From the NCBI GenBank assembly GCA_034439655.1, contig JAWXAU010000079.1:1-34525 (forward strand): 34,525 nucleotides of DNA, read 5' to 3'. This document shows, one piece after another, positions 8,265-20,944 of the stretch. This DNA comes from Bacteroidota bacterium (GTDB lineage Bacteria > Bacteroidota > Bacteroidia > UKL13-3). The notes below the pieces were generated by a model that saw nothing but the letters and a program-made list of their open reading frames with translations, did not search any database and had not been told where the DNA came from. A program made the translations under genes and the position numbers. Numbering within the stretch: position 1 is the first letter of the stretch; every line of letters begins with the position of its first letter.

Positions 8265-9845
8265 ATGAATAAGCTCAAATAAAAATTCTTAGTGTTATGC
8301 TGTATGGCATCACTCTGCGGCTCTGCCCAAGTGGGCATTGGCACCAATACACCTGACTCATCTGCCATATTACACTTGGAAAGTACAAGTAAGGGATTTT
8401 TGCCAACACGAATGACCATTGCACAAAGGGATTCGATTGTGAACCCTGCCAATGGTCTGATAGTCTATATTACCGACAGCAATGATTTTTCATTTTATAA
8501 AGACAGTAGTTGGGACTTCTTATCATCTTATAGGAAAGTTTGGTCAATTTACGGTACGGCTACCGATCCTTTGCCCGATACTTTTATTTGGTTGGGAACA
8601 ACGGATAATACCCCACTCAAGTTTATGGTGAATGGAGGCAGGGCAGGTATAATAGACCATAACAATATGAATGCCTACTTAGGTTACCAGTCGGGAACTT
8701 CAAGTGGGTTTACTGCCTCGCGAAATGCATTTTTGGGTGACTCTACAGGTTATTTAACCACAACAGGTCGTGATAATTGCTTTATAGGCAAAAGTGCTGG
8801 ATTTAGCAATACAGTAGGCAAGTACAATAATTATGTGGGATCTATGTCTGGATACTCCTCGTCTACAAGTGATGATAATAATACTTTGGGTTATCAAACA
8901 TTATTTAATAATATCGATGGTATTAAAAATGTGGGTATTGCCAGCAATTCATTGTTTAATAATTTAACGGGCGATTGCAACATAGGTGTAGGGAATCAAA
9001 CATTATATAGTAATACTGTGGGAAATTTTAATATCGCTTTAGGTTGTAATGCTTTGAGCAACAACTCTGTTGGTAGTTATAATATCGCTATTGGCAGTTC
9101 TTCCATGGAAAACTTTGGAAATGGCGATTTGAATGTAGCCATTGGAGCCGCTTCAATGACAAACAAATTTGCAGGTACATCAAATGTGGCCATTGGAGCA
9201 GGGGCATTGGTAAATGACTCGATAGGAATGGGCAACACAGCTATAGGAAAAGAATCGTTAAAAAATAATAAAATTGGAAATGGCAATATCGCTATAGGTG
9301 CAAAAGCGGATGTATCATCTCCAAATCTTTTTAATGCAACTATGATATGATTTGATGCATCTGTCGATTCAAGCAATACTGTGAGAATAGGAAACTCACA
9401 AGTGAAACAATGGGGCTTTGGGGTAAATCCGGGGCAAGGTAAAGTGCTGGCAGTAGGTCATGATAGCACCAATGGTAATGGTGCATACTTATCAAGTGGA
9501 GGTGCATGGTCCAATTCATCATCATTCATCAAAAAGGACCGTATACAATTATTAGATGGGAATGATATATTGAAGAAAGTAATGCAATTGCATATAGATG
9601 GCTGGTATTATAAAGGCACCAATGAGTATCATATTGGTCCTTATGCGGAAGAGTTCTATAATACATTTAATACAGGAACCGACCAACATTATATAAGCAC
9701 GGTAGACCCTGCAGGTATTGCTCTTAAAGCTATTCAGGAATTAAATACGCAAAACCAAAATTTGAAAGCTGAGAATGAATTGTTGAAGCAGAGATTGGAT
9801 AGGTTGGAGCAGTTGATGGCTCAAGAAAATACAATAAAGAAATAA
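8265..9845 (+). pseudogene. Trimeric fibre protein (YadA-like head, S74-like tail) with two in-frame stops
   Basis: Reading in one frame from ATG 8265 gives a signal peptide broken at codon 6 by TAA (8280-8282): MNKLK, stop, KFLVLCCMASLCGSAQ. The frame then stays open through VGIGTNTPDSSAILHLES and a run of 24-25 residue repeats of the type N-x-AIG-x-x-AL-x-N, typical of the beta-roll heads of trimeric adhesins, until TGA at 9348-9350. The same frame resumes with FDASVDSSNTVRIGNS and ends in an S74-like tail (DPAGIALKAIQELN) plus a terminal coiled coil. Both stops are one substitution from a fitting codon (AAA to TAA for lysine, GGA to TGA for glycine). A GTG at 8292 could restart translation but would lack a proper signal peptide. 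I read this as a recently inactivated surface fibre gene; readthrough is the alternative. Confidence 0.8.
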
Positions 9846-13673: not shown

Positions 13674-16600
13674 ATGGTATTTTCTCATCTACACGTACAT
13701 ACACAATTCAGCTTGCTCGATGGTGCTGCACCCATCGGTAAATTATTTAAAAAAGCAATTGCCGATGGGCAGCCCGCTTTGGCTATTACCGACCATGGAA
13801 ATATGTTCGGGGCATTCAATTTTGTGGCCGAAGCTTATAAGCATAAAAATGAGGACGGAACTTTGAAAGTGAAGCCCATTGTGGGTTGTGAGTTTTATGT
13901 AGTGGACGATAGAACTAAGAAGCAATTTTCAAAAGATAATAAAGATGTTCGTTACCATCAATTGTTTTTGGCCAAGAATGAAGAAGGATATAAGAACTTG
14001 AGTAGGCTTTGTTCGCTGGGTTATATAGAAGGTTTATATAGTAAATGGCCACGTATCGACAAACAACTTATTGAGCAATATCACAAAGGACTCATCGCAA
14101 CTACCTGTTGTTTGGGGGCTTCTGTGCCTCGTACAATTTTACGTAAGGGCGAAGCAGAAGGAGAGAAGGAATTCAAATGGTGGTTGGATATGTTTGGCGA
14201 AGATTATTATATAGAATTACAACGCCATGATATTCCGGAGCAAAACCAGGTGAATGAAGTATTATTAAAATGGGCAGTAAAATATAATGTAAAAGTAATT
14301 TGCAGCAATGACAGTCACTATGTAGATAAGGAAGATTACAATGCCCATGATATATTATTATGCATCAATACAGGCGATGTGCAAAATACTCCAAAAGCCA
14401 CGGATGAAGAGGGTGGACGTGGTTATAGATTTGGTTTTCCCAATGACCAATTCTATTTTAAAACCACTGCCGAAATGGAACAATTATTTTCGGATATCCC
14501 ACAAGCATTGGATAATACGAATGAAATCGTTGGCAAAATTGATTTGCTAAGTCTGAAGAAAGATATATTGGTTCCTGCATTTCCTATCCCTGATGGATTT
14601 TTGAGTGCTGATGATTATTTGAAACATATAACTTATGAAGGAGCACGAAAAAGATATATAGAAATGACGCCCGAAATAGAGGAGCGGTTGAATTTTGAAT
14701 TACATACTATTAAAACTATGGGTTTCCCAGGTTATTTCCTTATCGTGGCCGACTTTATACAAGCTGGTCGAAATATGGGTGTGCTTATTGGTCCTGGTCG
14801 CGGCAGTGCTGCGGGCAGTGCTGTTGCGTATTGTATAGGCATCACCAATATCGACCCCATAAAATATGGAATGCTCTTCGAAAGGTTCTTAAATCCAGAA
14901 CGTAAATCCATGCCCGATATTGATACGGACTTCGATGATGAAGGTCGTGCGAAAGTATTAAATTATGTAGTAGAAAAATATGGTAAAAACCAAGTTGCAC
15001 AAATTATAAATTATGGAACGATGGCTGCAAAAAGTGCAATTAAGGACGTTTCACGAGCTCTCGATTTACCCTTAAGTGAGGCCAATGAACTGTCGAAAAT
15101 GTTTCCAGATAGGGCTAAGACTTTATATAATGTTTTTAAAACCAGCATGGATGAACTCAAGAAATCGGATGACCTGCAAAGTGAAGATTTAGATGCGATA
15201 AAAAAACTTAGAGATATAGAAAAGGGAACTGACTTAAAGGCCCAGGTTCTTAGAGAGGCACAGGCTTTGGAGGGTTCGGTGCGTAATACAGGAATACATG
15301 CATCGGCGGTAATTATTGCCCCAAGCAATTTGATTGATCATATACCTTTATCGGTCAATTCAAAAGAAGGTTCCGATTTACTGGTAACACAGTGGGATGG
15401 AAAAGTAGTAGAGGATGCTGGCTTACTGAAGATGGACTTTTTGGGATTGAAAACTTTAACTATTATAAAGAATGCAGTAGAAATTATAGAACAAAACTAT
15501 AATATTAAAATAGACCCCGACGAAATTCCATTGGACGATCCCAAAACATTTGAACTGTTTCAAAAAGGTGATACTACCGCAGTGTTCCAGTTTGAAAGTG
15601 CAGGCATGCAAAAGTATATGAAGGAGCTCAAGCCTACTCGCATAGAGGATTTGATAGCGATGAATGCTTTATACCGTCCGGGCCCGATGGAATATATACC
15701 TATGTTTATTAAGCGTAAACATGGCTTGGAAGAAATCAAATATCCTTTGCCTGAGTGCCAAGATATATTGGAAGAAACTTATGGTGTAACAGTATATCAA
15801 GAGCAGGTAATGCTACTTTCGCAAAAGCTTGCGGGCTTTACCAAAGGACAAGCAGATACCTTGCGAAAAGCTATGGGTAAGAAGCAAATTTCGGTGCTTA
15901 ATAGTATGAAGGAAACTTTTTTACAAGGCACTTCTGAACGCGGACATGATAAAACGGTATGCGAAAAAATGTGGGTTGATTGGGAAGCATTTGCACAATA
16001 TGCTTTTAATAAAAGTCACTCCACTTGTTATGCATTTGTGGCGAATCAAACTGCCTATCTCAAAGCAAATTATCCGAGTGAATTTATGGCTGCGGTATTA
16101 AACAGTACCAATAATATAGAAGATGTTGCTTTTTTTATGGAGGAGTGCAAACGTATGGGCATCAAGGTTCTTGGGCCTGATATTAATGAATCGAAATTGA
16201 AATTTTCGGTAAATAAAAATGGAGATATACGTTTTGGAATGGGCAGTATGAAGGGTGCGGGCGAAGTTGCCGTAACACAAATTATTTTAGAACGCGAAGC
16301 CAATGGACCATTCAAAAGTATATTTGATTTAACTCGCAGAGTCAATTTAAAAAATGTAAACAAACGTGTATTAGAATCGATGGCGTATGCAGGAGGATTT
16401 GATAGTGTGAGCGGAAATAATAGAGCAAAATATTTTCATTTAGAACAAGGTGAAACGGAAAACCCGATAGAAAAATCTATTCGTTATGGTAGTAATTATC
16501 AAGCACAGCAATCGGCCAATCAGCAAAGTTTATTTGGTGGAGCATCGGCCGTAAGCCTTCCAGAGCCGAGATTGCCCGAGGCAAAAGAGTGGGGTATTAT

Positions 16601-17237
16601 AGCACAACTCACCAAAGAAAAAGAAATGGTCGGTATATTTATTTCAGGACATCCTTTAGACAAATATCGATTTGAATTGGAAACTTTTTGTAAAAGTAAA
16701 GTGATAGAACTACAAGACTTGGATGCATTTCGAAATAAGGAAGTTACCGTAGGAGGTATGATTACAAAAGTAGTGCATCGCACAGGCAAAACAGGCAAGA
16801 AATTTGGCTTATTTACCTTAGAAGATTATACAGGGTCGTTTGAATTTGCATTGTTCGGTAAAGATTATACCGACTATAATAAGTATATGATGGAGGGTTT
16901 GTTTTTATATGTGCGTGCACGAATTCAACCTCGTTATAATGGTGATAGTTTAGAATGTAAAATTACTTTAATAGAGCACCTCACCGAAATAAAGCAACGC
17001 AAATTAAAAGGTATAAATATTAGTATAGAGCTTCCCAAATTTGATTTGGATATTTCAAATAAATTCGAAAAGATATTACAGGAAAATAAAGGCTCAACAC
17101 CCGTTACTATTACTTTTAAAGAGCCAGTAGAAAACATGAATGCAGAAAGTTTATGTGCGAAATATAGTGTGGATTATACGCAAGATTTGAACGAAGCTTT
17201 GCAAAGGTTGGATATGGATGTGAAGGTGAATGTGTGA
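13674..17237 (+). CDS. dnaE: DNA polymerase III subunit alpha
   Basis: This is the catalytic subunit of the replicative polymerase, 1187 residues and uninterrupted. In order: the PHP domain (FSHLHVHTQFSLLDG, ITDHGNMFG, NDSHYVDKEDYNAHD); the C-family polymerase core with GPGRGSAAGSAVAYCIGIT and the catalytic PDIDTDFDDEGR near residue 420; a second acidic motif in LLKMDFLGLKTLTI near 590; the fingers with YRPGPMEYIPMF; KSHSTCYAFVANQTAYLKANYP; a helix-hairpin-helix region; and a C-terminal OB fold (EVTVGGMITKVVHRTGKTGKK). The ATG at 13674 gives the standard N-terminus of DnaE1. It is slightly longer than Escherichia coli DnaE (1160), normal for this phylum. Confidence 0.98.
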   Translation: MVFSHLHVHTQFSLLDGAAPIGKLFKKAIADGQPALAITDHGNMFGAFNFVAEAYKHKNEDGTLKVKPIVGCEFYVVDDRTKKQFSKDNKDVRYHQLFLAKNEEGYKNLSRLCSLGYIEGLYSKWPRIDKQLIEQYHKGLIATTCCLGASVPRTILRKGEAEGEKEFKWWLDMFGEDYYIELQRHDIPEQNQVNEVLLKWAVKYNVKVICSNDSHYVDKEDYNAHDILLCINTGDVQNTPKATDEEGGRGYRFGFPNDQFYFKTTAEMEQLFSDIPQALDNTNEIVGKIDLLSLKKDILVPAFPIPDGFLSADDYLKHITYEGARKRYIEMTPEIEERLNFELHTIKTMGFPGYFLIVADFIQAGRNMGVLIGPGRGSAAGSAVAYCIGITNIDPIKYGMLFERFLNPERKSMPDIDTDFDDEGRAKVLNYVVEKYGKNQVAQIINYGTMAAKSAIKDVSRALDLPLSEANELSKMFPDRAKTLYNVFKTSMDELKKSDDLQSEDLDAIKKLRDIEKGTDLKAQVLREAQALEGSVRNTGIHASAVIIAPSNLIDHIPLSVNSKEGSDLLVTQWDGKVVEDAGLLKMDFLGLKTLTIIKNAVEIIEQNYNIKIDPDEIPLDDPKTFELFQKGDTTAVFQFESAGMQKYMKELKPTRIEDLIAMNALYRPGPMEYIPMFIKRKHGLEEIKYPLPECQDILEETYGVTVYQEQVMLLSQKLAGFTKGQADTLRKAMGKKQISVLNSMKETFLQGTSERGHDKTVCEKMWVDWEAFAQYAFNKSHSTCYAFVANQTAYLKANYPSEFMAAVLNSTNNIEDVAFFMEECKRMGIKVLGPDINESKLKFSVNKNGDIRFGMGSMKGAGEVAVTQIILEREANGPFKSIFDLTRRVNLKNVNKRVLESMAYAGGFDSVSGNNRAKYFHLEQGETENPIEKSIRYGSNYQAQQSANQQSLFGGASAVSLPEPRLPEAKEWGIIAQLTKEKEMVGIFISGHPLDKYRFELETFCKSKVIELQDLDAFRNKEVTVGGMITKVVHRTGKTGKKFGLFTLEDYTGSFEFALFGKDYTDYNKYMMEGLFLYVRARIQPRYNGDSLECKITLIEHLTEIKQRKLKGINISIELPKFDLDISNKFEKILQENKGSTPVTITFKEPVENMNAESLCAKYSVDYTQDLNEALQRLDMDVKVNV

Positions 17238-17303: not shown

Positions 17304-18392
17304 ATGGCAAAAAAAATTACCGAAAGTTACTTTCTTACTGATGTGGAGATTAAAAACTTCAAATCAATTAAGCATTTAAAGTTTAAGCCTAAAAGAGTAA
17401 ACTTATTCATTGGAAAACCTAATAGTGGAAAGTCAAATTTGTTAGAGGCTTTGTCATTACTTGGCGAGACTTATAATGGTTATGCAGGTCCATTTTTGGA
17501 AAGTTTTATCCGTTTTGACTCTTATAGTCAGTTGTTTTTTAATTTAGACCAATCAAGCCCAATCGAAATAAAAACAAATTTAGGAAATGCGTGGTTGCGT
17601 TACTTGAAGGGAAATAATATACATGACCTAATTATAGGTATTAGTGAAGAAGAGTATAAAAAAAATGTACTGTCTCTTTAAAGAACAAATGATATGGAAC
17701 AGTACGTTCTTTCTAATAAAAGCCCGCATTTTATACTGAAACCATTTTATAAGAGCTTTCAAAGTAATGATAATTATCAAATGGAGCAAGGTATTGAAAC
17801 TCCAATTAAAAGATATTATTTTCAGCCCAAACTAGTTAAAAACTACTCCGATAGTTTTTCTTTGTTCCTCAAAACATCAGGTGAGAATCTATATTCGATA
17901 ATTGAAGGTGATGCCCATCTAAGAGAAATAGCGGGAGATTTTTTTAAAGAGTACAAATTAGATTTTGTATTTGACATAGATAAGAAAAAATTTTTGATAC
18001 AAAAAAGGATTGGAAATATTGTATATAATTGGACTTTGACAATGACTCCTGATACTTTTCAAAGACTGATTTATTATTTAGCTGCTATATATTCAAATAA
18101 TAATTCTGTGTTACTTTTTGAAGAACCAGAAGCACACTCCTTCCCGCCGTATATTTCTATGATAGGTGAGCTGATAGGAAAAAAAGCGGAGAACCAATAT
18201 TTTATTTCCACCCATTCTCCTTACGTATATCAGTCAATCGTTTCGAACACAAACAAGGATGATTTAGCTGTGTGGGCTTTGTCATACTCCAAAGGCCAAA
18301 CAAAGATGGTGCAGTTGACAGAAAAGCAGATTGGCGAAACTTTGAGTGATGGAGTTGATGTATTTCAAAATATAGAACGCTATACTAAATAA
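17304..18392 (+). pseudogene. SMC/OLD-like AAA ATPase split by one in-frame TAA
   Basis: One continuous frame of 362 codons reads as a single ATPase, apart from TAA at codon 126 (17679-17681). Part 1 has the usual opening VEIKNFKSIKHLKF and a Walker A GKPNSGKS at residues 37-44. Part 2, with an ATG at 17694 five codons after the stop, has TPDTFQRLIYYLAAI, Walker B VLLFEEPEAHS, and the D-loop/H-switch ISTHSPYV. These are hallmarks of the AAA_15/AAA_21 ATPases related to OLD, RloA and RecF. Neither part can hydrolyse ATP alone, because Walker A and B lie on separate pieces; they could work only by readthrough or by complementing each other. It has its own promoter and lies three bases before a TOPRIM-like partner. 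I infer an anti-phage or DNA-maintenance system, probably inactivated by nonsense mutation. Confidence 0.8.
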
Positions 18393-18395
18393 TAT

Positions 18396-18881
18396 ATGGT
18401 AGTTTTATATCCCGAATGTCATACTGAGAAATTCCTTTGTGAGTTCATTGGTTATTCCAAAAGCAAGATAATTACGTGTAATGGAAAACCAAATGTAATC
18501 AATAAACTCAGATCGTCGGATAATGATATTATTGCAATTGGTATTGTTGATGAAGTTCCAATGAAGACTCAGCATCCAGATTGTAAATTGTATATTGAGA
18601 AAGCCAATTATTTAGTTATTAGTCTATTACAACAAAAGAATAATGCGAAATATTTTTTAATTGAATTCAAAGAAGAATTTGAGCCTTGGATTAAAAATAT
18701 AAATAAGAAAGCAAAAGTTGATCCCGAAAGATATAATAGTAAAATGGACAGGCTCCATGAATATACAGGAGTAAATATTCCAGATAAGTATAAAAAGTTT
18801 CTTAAAAAAATATTTGATTCATATCCAGACCCAATTAATAAGTTTAAGCAATGGATAAAAGATTGCGATAATAATAGCTAA
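18396..18881 (+). CDS. Small TOPRIM/RloB-like partner protein, 161 aa
   Basis: The start lies three bases after the ATPase stop, so the two are co-translated. The N-terminus VVLYPECHTEKFLCEFIG resembles the EGxTE-type first motif of TOPRIM and RloB/DUF4276 proteins, with Glu7 in the expected place. About 45 residues on, IAIGIVDEVP occupies the position of the DxD motif at the end of a hydrophobic strand, but only the first acid of a DxD and an adjacent Glu are present. The rest is helical and lysine-rich with no recognised domain. In OLD, PARIS and RloAB-like pairs such a protein is the nuclease or effector of the ATPase. This one is shorter than AriB or the OLD TOPRIM domain. Assignment is by motif pattern and context only. 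Confidence 0.62.
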   Translation: MVVLYPECHTEKFLCEFIGYSKSKIITCNGKPNVINKLRSSDNDIIAIGIVDEVPMKTQHPDCKLYIEKANYLVISLLQQKNNAKYFLIEFKEEFEPWIKNINKKAKVDPERYNSKMDRLHEYTGVNIPDKYKKFLKKIFDSYPDPINKFKQWIKDCDNNS

Positions 18882-18986: not shown

Positions 18987-19475
18987 ATGAAAAATACATT
19001 TACTGCAATAGATTTTGAAACGGCACATGGAAAAAGATGGAGCATTTGTCAAGTGGGCTTGGTACGTGTTGAAAATGGAATTATTACCGACAAATTATCA
19101 ATTTTAGTGCAGCCGCCTGATAATTTTTATTTCTATAGAAACACAGAAATTCATGGTATTACCCCTCAGCAAACACGGCATTCACCAACCTTCGATGGTG
19201 TATGGGGGCAGCTAGAACCCTATATTAAAGAACAAGACGTAATAGCTCACAATGGTTTTGCATTCGACTTTAATTGTTTAGAACATACACTTGCCTATTA
19301 TGATATCGCCAAACCACAGTATAAAGGATATTGTACCTATAAAATATATAAGGCTAACTTAGCTTCGCTATGCAAGCAATACAATATTCCTTTAAATCAT
19401 CATGATGCACTGAGTGATGCGATGGCTTGTGCGAGGTTATATGAGATGCATATTGCCGCTACAAATTATAAATAA
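18987..19475 (+). CDS. DnaQ-like DEDDh 3'-5' exonuclease, 162 aa
   Basis: This is an exonuclease-fold protein of the polymerase III epsilon family, acting on 3' ends of DNA or RNA. All catalytic positions are visible: D9 and E11 in AIDFETAHG, D94 in IAHNGFAFD, and the H139-x-A-x-x-D144 signature in HHDALSDA. SICQVGLVRVENG and EIHGITPQQT are typical of the cd06130-like subgroup. At 162 residues it is a bare catalytic domain with no polymerase-binding or BRCT tail. The leader is A-rich (11 A's just before the ATG), and a T10 run lies about 70 bases upstream. It stands alone between the ATPase pair and a frameshifted gene. It may be general repair or part of the accessory block. Confidence 0.9.
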   Translation: MKNTFTAIDFETAHGKRWSICQVGLVRVENGIITDKLSILVQPPDNFYFYRNTEIHGITPQQTRHSPTFDGVWGQLEPYIKEQDVIAHNGFAFDFNCLEHTLAYYDIAKPQYKGYCTYKIYKANLASLCKQYNIPLNHHDALSDAMACARLYEMHIAATNYK

Positions 19476-19488
19476 AATAAAACATAAC

Positions 19489-20299
19489 ATGACAGATACA
19501 TATAATAAATTTTCCCAAGAATATGATAAATTATTCGCTGAGAATATCGTCAGTTTTATAAAAAATATAAAAGCTAAGAAGGATTTAAAAGGCAATTACA
19601 GACTTTTTTACCCCTCGTTTGGTGTTAAAGAAAATGAAAAGTGTGATTTCATCATTTATGGGCAGGCGGTAAAGGATTGGAGCCCTGATATAAGTCTACT
19701 AGAAGATAAGCGATCAATTGCGGATAAAGTAAAGGAAAGTATAATCTATTCGAATTCATATTTAGAAAATCATTGTCCGCTTGATTGGGTGAATGTATAT
19801 TGGAGTAAAAAATCCTACACACTTAATACCTTAAAGAAAGAAGCGGAGGAATTCTATCCCCCTATAGATTATACTACATCTAGATCATTTTTTTGGGAAT
19901 GTAGTATATAAGTTCATTTCTGATTATTATGAAATAAGCAGAGATAGTAATGATTGGGCTAAAAAGATCATTTGGTCAAATTTGTATAAGATATCGCCTG
20001 ATTATGGTAATCCAGAAATTGATGAACGTGTGTATCAATTAGATTTATCAGTTGAATTATTAAAAAGGGAAATAGATGAAATCAAACCTAAGTTTTGTAT
20101 AATACTTACAAATGAAGAATGGTGGAAGCCCTTTAGAGAAAAGTTAGAACAAAAAAAATTGGAACACAATAGCGGACCAGAAGTGATATCATTTGAAGAG
20201 TATAATGATACTAAAATAATATTGACCACTAGGCCCTTTAGCGGCAGCCATGAAAAACATGTTTCTCAAATCCTCAAACTAACGGAAAGAGCAAAGTAA
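19489..20299 (+). pseudogene. Frameshifted hypothetical protein, possibly uracil-DNA-glycosylase-like
   Basis: Frame 1 runs from ATG 19489 and stops at 19911 after RSFFWECSI. Shifting by one base at the T7/G3 run around 19888-19897 gives a smooth continuation, FFxNVVYKFISDYYEISRDSNDW, which stays open to 20299, for about 270 residues in all. So a single extra base in a homopolymer explains the break. The joined protein has FIIYGQAVKDW, then IIWSNLYKISPDYGNP, and near the end RPFSGSHEKHVSQIL. The order of a GQ loop, a strand with Asn and a late S-x-x-H resembles the uracil-DNA-glycosylase superfamily, but this is a weak fold-level guess. It starts 13 bases after the exonuclease stop, so the two are probably cotranscribed. 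Confidence 0.65.
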
Positions 20300-20305
20300 T
20301 ATACA

Positions 20306-20944
20306 TTAAATAACCCTCAACCTTCTCACCCCACTCGCCAACAAAGCACCCAAAACCGGAGCAATTATATATAACCACAACGAAGTAAAATTTCCCGAAA
20401 CCAATGCAGGTGCTAGGCTGCGGGCAGGGTTCATGGATGCTCCACAAATAGGGCCCGCAAACAGAGCTTCCAATAATACCGTTCCGCCAATTGCCAAGCC
20501 TGCAAAATGATTGACATGGTTACTTTCTTCGGTACTATATAATATAACCAACATCAATATAAAAGTAAGTATTAGTTCTAGTATAAAAGATTGCATTTCA
20601 CTTCCTGCGGGTAAAGTTGCTCCTAAGTTTATATTATTGGGGAATAAAAATTTTAACAATATACTTGCCGTAATTCCACCGAGTATTTGCATACTTATAT
20701 AAGGAAGAATTTCTTTGCCTTTAAATCTTTTTGCAAGCCACAAGCCCAAAGTTACTGTTGGGTTTATATGTGCTCCGCTTACATGGCCAAAACTATATAT
20801 CATAGCGATTACAATCAATCCGAAAGTAAAGGCAATGCCAATGTGGCCAATAGTTCCATTGGTTTCTTGGTTAATAATAATGGCACCCGTTCCACAAAAG
20901 ATTAGGGCAAATGTTCCAATAAATTCTGCTAGATATTTTTTCAT
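20306..20944 (-). CDS. Aquaglyceroporin (MIP family) of an arsenic operon
   Basis: This is a six-helix MIP channel of 212 residues with two half-helix loops: SGAHINPTVT at residues 57-66 and GASMNPARS at 169-177. The first loop has NPT rather than NPA; the second is canonical with its arginine. Its ATG overlaps the arsC stop in ATGA, so it is translationally coupled. In AqpS-type operons such channels let arsenite made by ArsC leave the cell down its gradient, replacing an ArsB or Acr3 pump. No arsenite pump gene is present here, which supports that role. It converges with the frameshifted gene at 20299. Confidence 0.9.
   Translation of the reverse strand: MKKYLAEFIGTFALIFCGTGAIIINQETNGTIGHIGIAFTFGLIVIAMIYSFGHVSGAHINPTVTLGLWLAKRFKGKEILPYISMQILGGITASILLKFLFPNNINLGATLPAGSEMQSFILELILTFILMLVILYSTEESNHVNHFAGLAIGGTVLLEALFAGPICGASMNPARSLAPALVSGNFTSLWLYIIAPVLGALLASGVRRLRVI

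Follow-up and report, generated by a model that had tools for sequence, protein, structure and literature searches.

A probable recent nonsense interruption in the ATPase gene of an OLD-like two-gene cassette from a Bacteroidota genome

Within the stretch of DNA that we analysed (34,525 nucleotides, hereafter the window), an ABC-type ATPase gene is interrupted by a single in-frame TAA codon. The gene most likely belongs to an uncatalogued split-OLD cassette and has suffered a real and recent nonsense interruption, and on balance we think it probable that the whole is an accessory cassette of split-OLD type that was recently inactivated.

The reading frame of the ATPase extends over 17304-18392, giving 363 codons before its natural end, and the TAA at 17679-17681 is the only stop within it. 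The original prediction placed the two halves in the same frame with one TAA between Walker A and Walker B and an ATG shortly beyond, and all of this is borne out. The open reading frames 17304-17681 (125 aa) and 17694-18392 (232 aa) share one frame, and the first in-frame ATG past the stop lies at 17694-17696, 12 nt downstream. The features of the interrupted gene are:

17304-17681, plus strand: ATPase N-lobe fragment, 125 aa, comprising Walker A and the ABC/RecF-like strands of the N terminus, terminated by the TAA (AAA_15, 1.3e-10, profile 3-55)
17412-17435, plus strand: Walker A, GKPNSGKS, codons 37-44, upstream of the stop; G37, N40, G42 and K43 invariant
17679-17681, plus strand: in-frame TAA, within the hypervariable insert between the N-lobe and C-lobe
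17694-18392, plus strand: C-lobe portion of the ATPase, 232 aa, which carries Walker B and the H-loop (AAA_21, 2.8e-08, profile 169-302)
approximately 18108-18125, plus strand: Walker B, VLLFEE, followed by PEAHS, downstream of the stop; E274, P275 and E276 invariant
18213-18215, plus strand: H-loop His, downstream of the stop

The stop divides Pfam AAA_15 between the halves, with profile positions 3-55 in the first and 326-373 of 374 in the second, and AAA_21 is divided likewise, its N-terminal end lying in the first half and its C-terminal part in the second. Walker A, Walker B and the H-loop of the ABC/RecF type are all present, lying astride the stop in the window and within a single chain in homologues. 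Since the homologues align over the joint as a single protein, the alignments identify 17304-18392 as one interrupted gene and rule out two chance neighbours. The N-terminal half has no Walker B and the C-terminal half no Walker A, and the ATPase is therefore most likely non-functional in the source genome. Aligned with the homologues, the stop sits in a hypervariable, poorly conserved stretch between the two lobes, and in a predicted model of the read-through ATPase residue 126 lies in a low-confidence stretch with pLDDT <50.

The search for homologues took in 147 relatives, together with 64 genomes from the order, 395 from the class and 395 from the phylum, and also GTDB contigs (alignment query). 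All 29 near-complete ATPase homologues (321-413 aa) are single open frames without a stop, and none is split at this joint. The question raised at the outset, whether related genomes carry the same split or always have two separate genes, is thus answered in the negative on both counts within this set. Because every near-complete homologue is unbroken, the comparison argues that a split ATPase is no trait of the family. The hosts are Bacteroidota (including Larkinella, Hymenobacter and a Flammeovirgaceae MAG), the gammaproteobacterium Methylocucumis oryzae and one Spirochaetota MAG. In the same-genus genome G001 the contig ends inside the gene and the N-lobe of the orthologue is absent, so that the nearest intact comparison has about 43% identity.

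Outside these loci, a pattern search with the bare window protein gave no close homologues in genome contigs or viral contigs, and a profile search of the viral contigs returned only weak C-lobe matches of 25-39% identity. An intact pair of ATPase and small Toprim genes is carried as gp15 and gp16 by an archaeal pleolipovirus, Geoglobus ahangari pleomorphic virus 1 (BK065157.1); these are annotated merely as an AAA ATPase and a hypothetical protein (L092 2001-3442). The plasmid search gave one match to the ATPase, a C-lobe fragment in Parabacteroides; this lies on the P. distasonis plasmid NZ_OY725749.1 (L093 2001-2579), and has no partner gene. We also observed an N-lobe-only fragment of 93 aa of the same family (G136:C9:3739-3954; L011), apparently another broken copy.

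Directly behind the ATPase lies a second gene:

18396-18881, plus strand: partner gene, 161 aa, small Toprim-like nuclease, with E7, E11, D52, V54 and E96
18555-18557, plus strand: second Asp of the Toprim DxD replaced by Val (V54); all 28 homologues, the same-genus orthologue among them, have Asp

At 27 of 29 loci, as in the archaeal virus, the ATPase is closely followed by an open frame of about 150-210 codons; at the other two none was found directly behind it. The signature of Toprim is a glutamate following strand one, with DxD following strand three. When 28 partner homologues were aligned, E7, D52 and D54 (window numbering) were invariant in all of them, with acidic residues also common at positions 11 and 96. 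The family fits the signature, and the window copy, with Glu and DxV in place of Glu and DxD, does not. The partner gene had been described as intact, which holds for its reading frame but not for its active site. By homology and position we would file the window cassette as a degenerate copy.

The order and spacing of the partner's acidic residues fit the two-metal site of Burkholderia pseudomallei OLD (BpOLD; PMC6755086). In that enzyme single alanine changes of metal-site residues, including D457A, left cleavage in vitro unlowered (PMC6755086), and V54 therefore appears to be good evidence of lost constraint but no proof of a dead nuclease. The predicted model of the window partner has a pLDDT of 84. 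In a VIA-align search with this model the C-terminal regions of OLD proteins (6nk8 and 6njv) ranked top with Z of 6.7-7.0, with unrelated folds within 1 Z, and GajA, retron Eco2 and PARIS chains came further down, the PARIS complex chain 8ux9_A having Z of 5.3. Foldseek gave no match for the model at E <= 0.001. A fold like that of the Toprim/OLD C-terminal region is thus only moderately supported, and unproven, by a moderate match to the Toprim domains of OLD, GajA and PARIS. In PADLOC neither the window partner nor any of seven homologous partners finds a matching model, and Pfam has no significant match for the small partner family (homologous loci L004-L056 and L076-L080). One family member hints at DUF4276 with E of 0.059; our literature search found nothing linking DUF4276, Toprim, ATPase and anti-phage activity.

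The cassette lies in an insertion between two host genes, with the following features:

13674-17237, plus strand: dnaE-like gene, intact, left border of the insertion site
18987-19475, plus strand: RNase_T-type exonuclease gene inside the insertion, apparently intact (RNase_T, 9.4e-16)
19489-20299, plus strand: third gene of the insertion, frameshifted, function unassigned; the match changes frame at about 19889-19911
20306-20944, minus strand: aquaporin-like gene, right border of the insertion

Relatives of the third gene in other genomes are single open reading frames of about 259-276 aa, and its frameshift is at or near a T-run. In G002, of the same genus, the aquaporin gene comes directly after dnaE, corresponding to an empty site. 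In G001 the C-lobe and partner adjoin the aquaporin gene on contig C258, and contig C81 ends just past dnaE, so the G001 cassette very probably occupies the same dnaE/aquaporin site. The source genome has a second copy of the cassette on contig C1 (G000:C1:74-1325; L002/L025), in which the ATPase is without its Walker A lobe, and the partner is shortened with Ala replacing the first Asp of DxD.

Comparison with G001 bears on the time of the damage. Over 89 comparable codons the C-lobe differs by 38 synonymous and 12 nonsynonymous changes, giving dN/dS of 0.03, and the partner gives 0.17 against its orthologue; dS is near saturation, and both figures are therefore rough. The C-lobe value points to purifying selection over most of the history of that lobe. 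A long-dead gene would look otherwise, and so, judged from these substitutions, the damage to the ATPase must be young compared with the divergence from G001. The earlier suggestion was of a change either recent or tolerated, and the first of these agrees with the comparison.

We have sought to weigh this reading against three others. The TAA might be an error of sequencing or assembly, or the minority allele of a strain mixture in the MAG consensus, with the gene intact in the organism. The MAG to which the window belongs, as contig C79, comprises 205 contigs and 3.5 Mb, and three genes on C79 carry disabling changes, one of them the frameshift in a T-run. We therefore regard an artefact as a real, if unlikely, explanation. 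When about 1 Mb of the source genome was compared with about 420 kb of G002, in-frame stops were found in only three of the 102 shared genes (42,263 codons) and frameshifts in none, and the assembly is thus not generally error-ridden. One of the three genes lies in the window outside the insertion, and encodes a secreted-type repeat protein (8265-9845); here a 524-aa repeat protein of G002 (77% identical) is interrupted by TAA at 8280-8282 and TGA at 9348-9350. All the other window genes shared with G002 are open, the large conserved ones included. The disabling changes seen on contig C79 miss all five large conserved genes, which hold half of the codons; random errors would be expected to do so in about 6% of cases, a weak figure and a post hoc argument. 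It also counts against an artefact that the stop and V54 are both substitutions within one operon, separated by 0.9 kb. That the disabling changes are confined to accessory genes favours genuine decay rather than random errors in the consensus.

A tolerated split would accept the stop as real and have ribosomes terminate at the TAA and begin again at the ATG lying 12 nt beyond, with the two chains assembling into a working ATPase. The Rad50 N- and C-lobes work in vitro as separate polypeptides, and Rad50-like lobes are in general able to pair in trans. Both lobes are otherwise normal and share a frame, the C-lobe was strongly conserved until recently, and the joint falls in a poorly conserved, low-confidence insert. 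This last point also counts against recent inactivation, since a split could do no harm in a variable insert that tolerates change and is soon followed by a start codon. None of the 29 homologues is split, however, while the changed active site of the partner and the frameshift in the neighbouring gene indicate decay, and a two-chain enzyme is for these reasons quite unlikely. Its specific form, an OLD-type ATPase made by termination and restart and paired with a Toprim subunit of altered or purely structural role, we consider very unlikely. We give least credence of all to programmed readthrough or recoding of the TAA into a full-length ATPase. In bacteria in-frame stops with low dN/dS, under purifying selection, have been reported as common and as sometimes read through (PMC7918605), a point that also weighs against inactivation, but the stop here is TAA, whereas TGA is the leaky one, and it is not conserved in relatives. 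Other genes of the window, among them the partner and the exonuclease, end at TAA in the normal way. A recoding structure or palindrome at the stop was rejected as within chance, the RNA around it being no more structured than shuffles (z -0.89) and the nearby 7-base inverted repeats being equally frequent in 12% of equal stretches.

The original prediction had offered a fresh nonsense mutation, a programmed readthrough or restart, and a two-chain ATPase as options. The fresh nonsense mutation is the one to be favoured, because none of the 29 homologues is split, the partner has lost an invariant Asp, the third gene is frameshifted and the C-lobe has a low dN/dS; the other two have fared poorly. 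The similarly degraded copy on contig C1 also supports recent inactivation.

On this preferred reading the intact cassette would consist of two tandem genes, one for an ABC ATPase of OLD/RecF type (about 360 aa), the other for a separate small Toprim nuclease of about 160 aa. Where the cassette is intact, the ATPase presumably keeps hold of the small nuclease and activates it, on the pattern of OLD, Gabija and PARIS (PMC12796447, PMC10568477), and by analogy with OLD systems it may sense a viral cue by which it controls the nuclease. An anti-viral function of the original cassette is inferred by the same analogy. In the window genome the nonsense codon would end the ATPase after the Walker A lobe, leaving a nuclease minus one metal-site aspartate beside a frameshifted gene of the insertion. 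The stop itself would then be an ordinary event, a case of an accessory defence-type cassette dying by point changes in its ATPase, its nuclease and a neighbour, with the large conserved genes of the host left undamaged. The intact two-gene family of ATPase and mini-Toprim is of greater interest, occurring in Bacteroidota, a gammaproteobacterium, a Spirochaetota MAG and an archaeal pleolipovirus.

The cassette may be compared with several known systems. In PARIS (AriA/AriB, class 4 OLD) the ATPase and the Toprim nuclease are likewise encoded by separate adjacent genes, and the read-through window ATPase matches AriA profiles at 1e-15 to 1e-16. The AriA match at 2.6e-16 is one among many similar ATPase matches in PADLOC, with AbiLi, NsnB and HEC-01A scoring similarly; the window partner of about 160 aa is matched by no PADLOC model, AriB included, and the window ATPase is interrupted. 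Lactococcal AbiL is also laid out as two genes. Among PADLOC models AbiLi matches the read-through ATPase best, at full length and 1e-19, but the partner matches no model, and any kinship with AbiLii would be tentative. Class 1 and 2 OLD proteins and GajA of Gabija resemble the cassette in joining an ABC ATPase with Toprim, and E400, E404, D455, D457 and E508 of BpOLD (PMC6755086) correspond in order, by our own mapping, to E7, D/E11, D52, D54 and E96 of the window family. They differ in being encoded by one gene in place of two, and no GajB helicase adjoins the window cassette. From bacterial nonsense pseudogenes no difference is evident. Like them, the window gene is accessory, was under constraint until recently and is open apart from one in-frame stop, and its homologues are continuous open reading frames in 29 of 29 cases.
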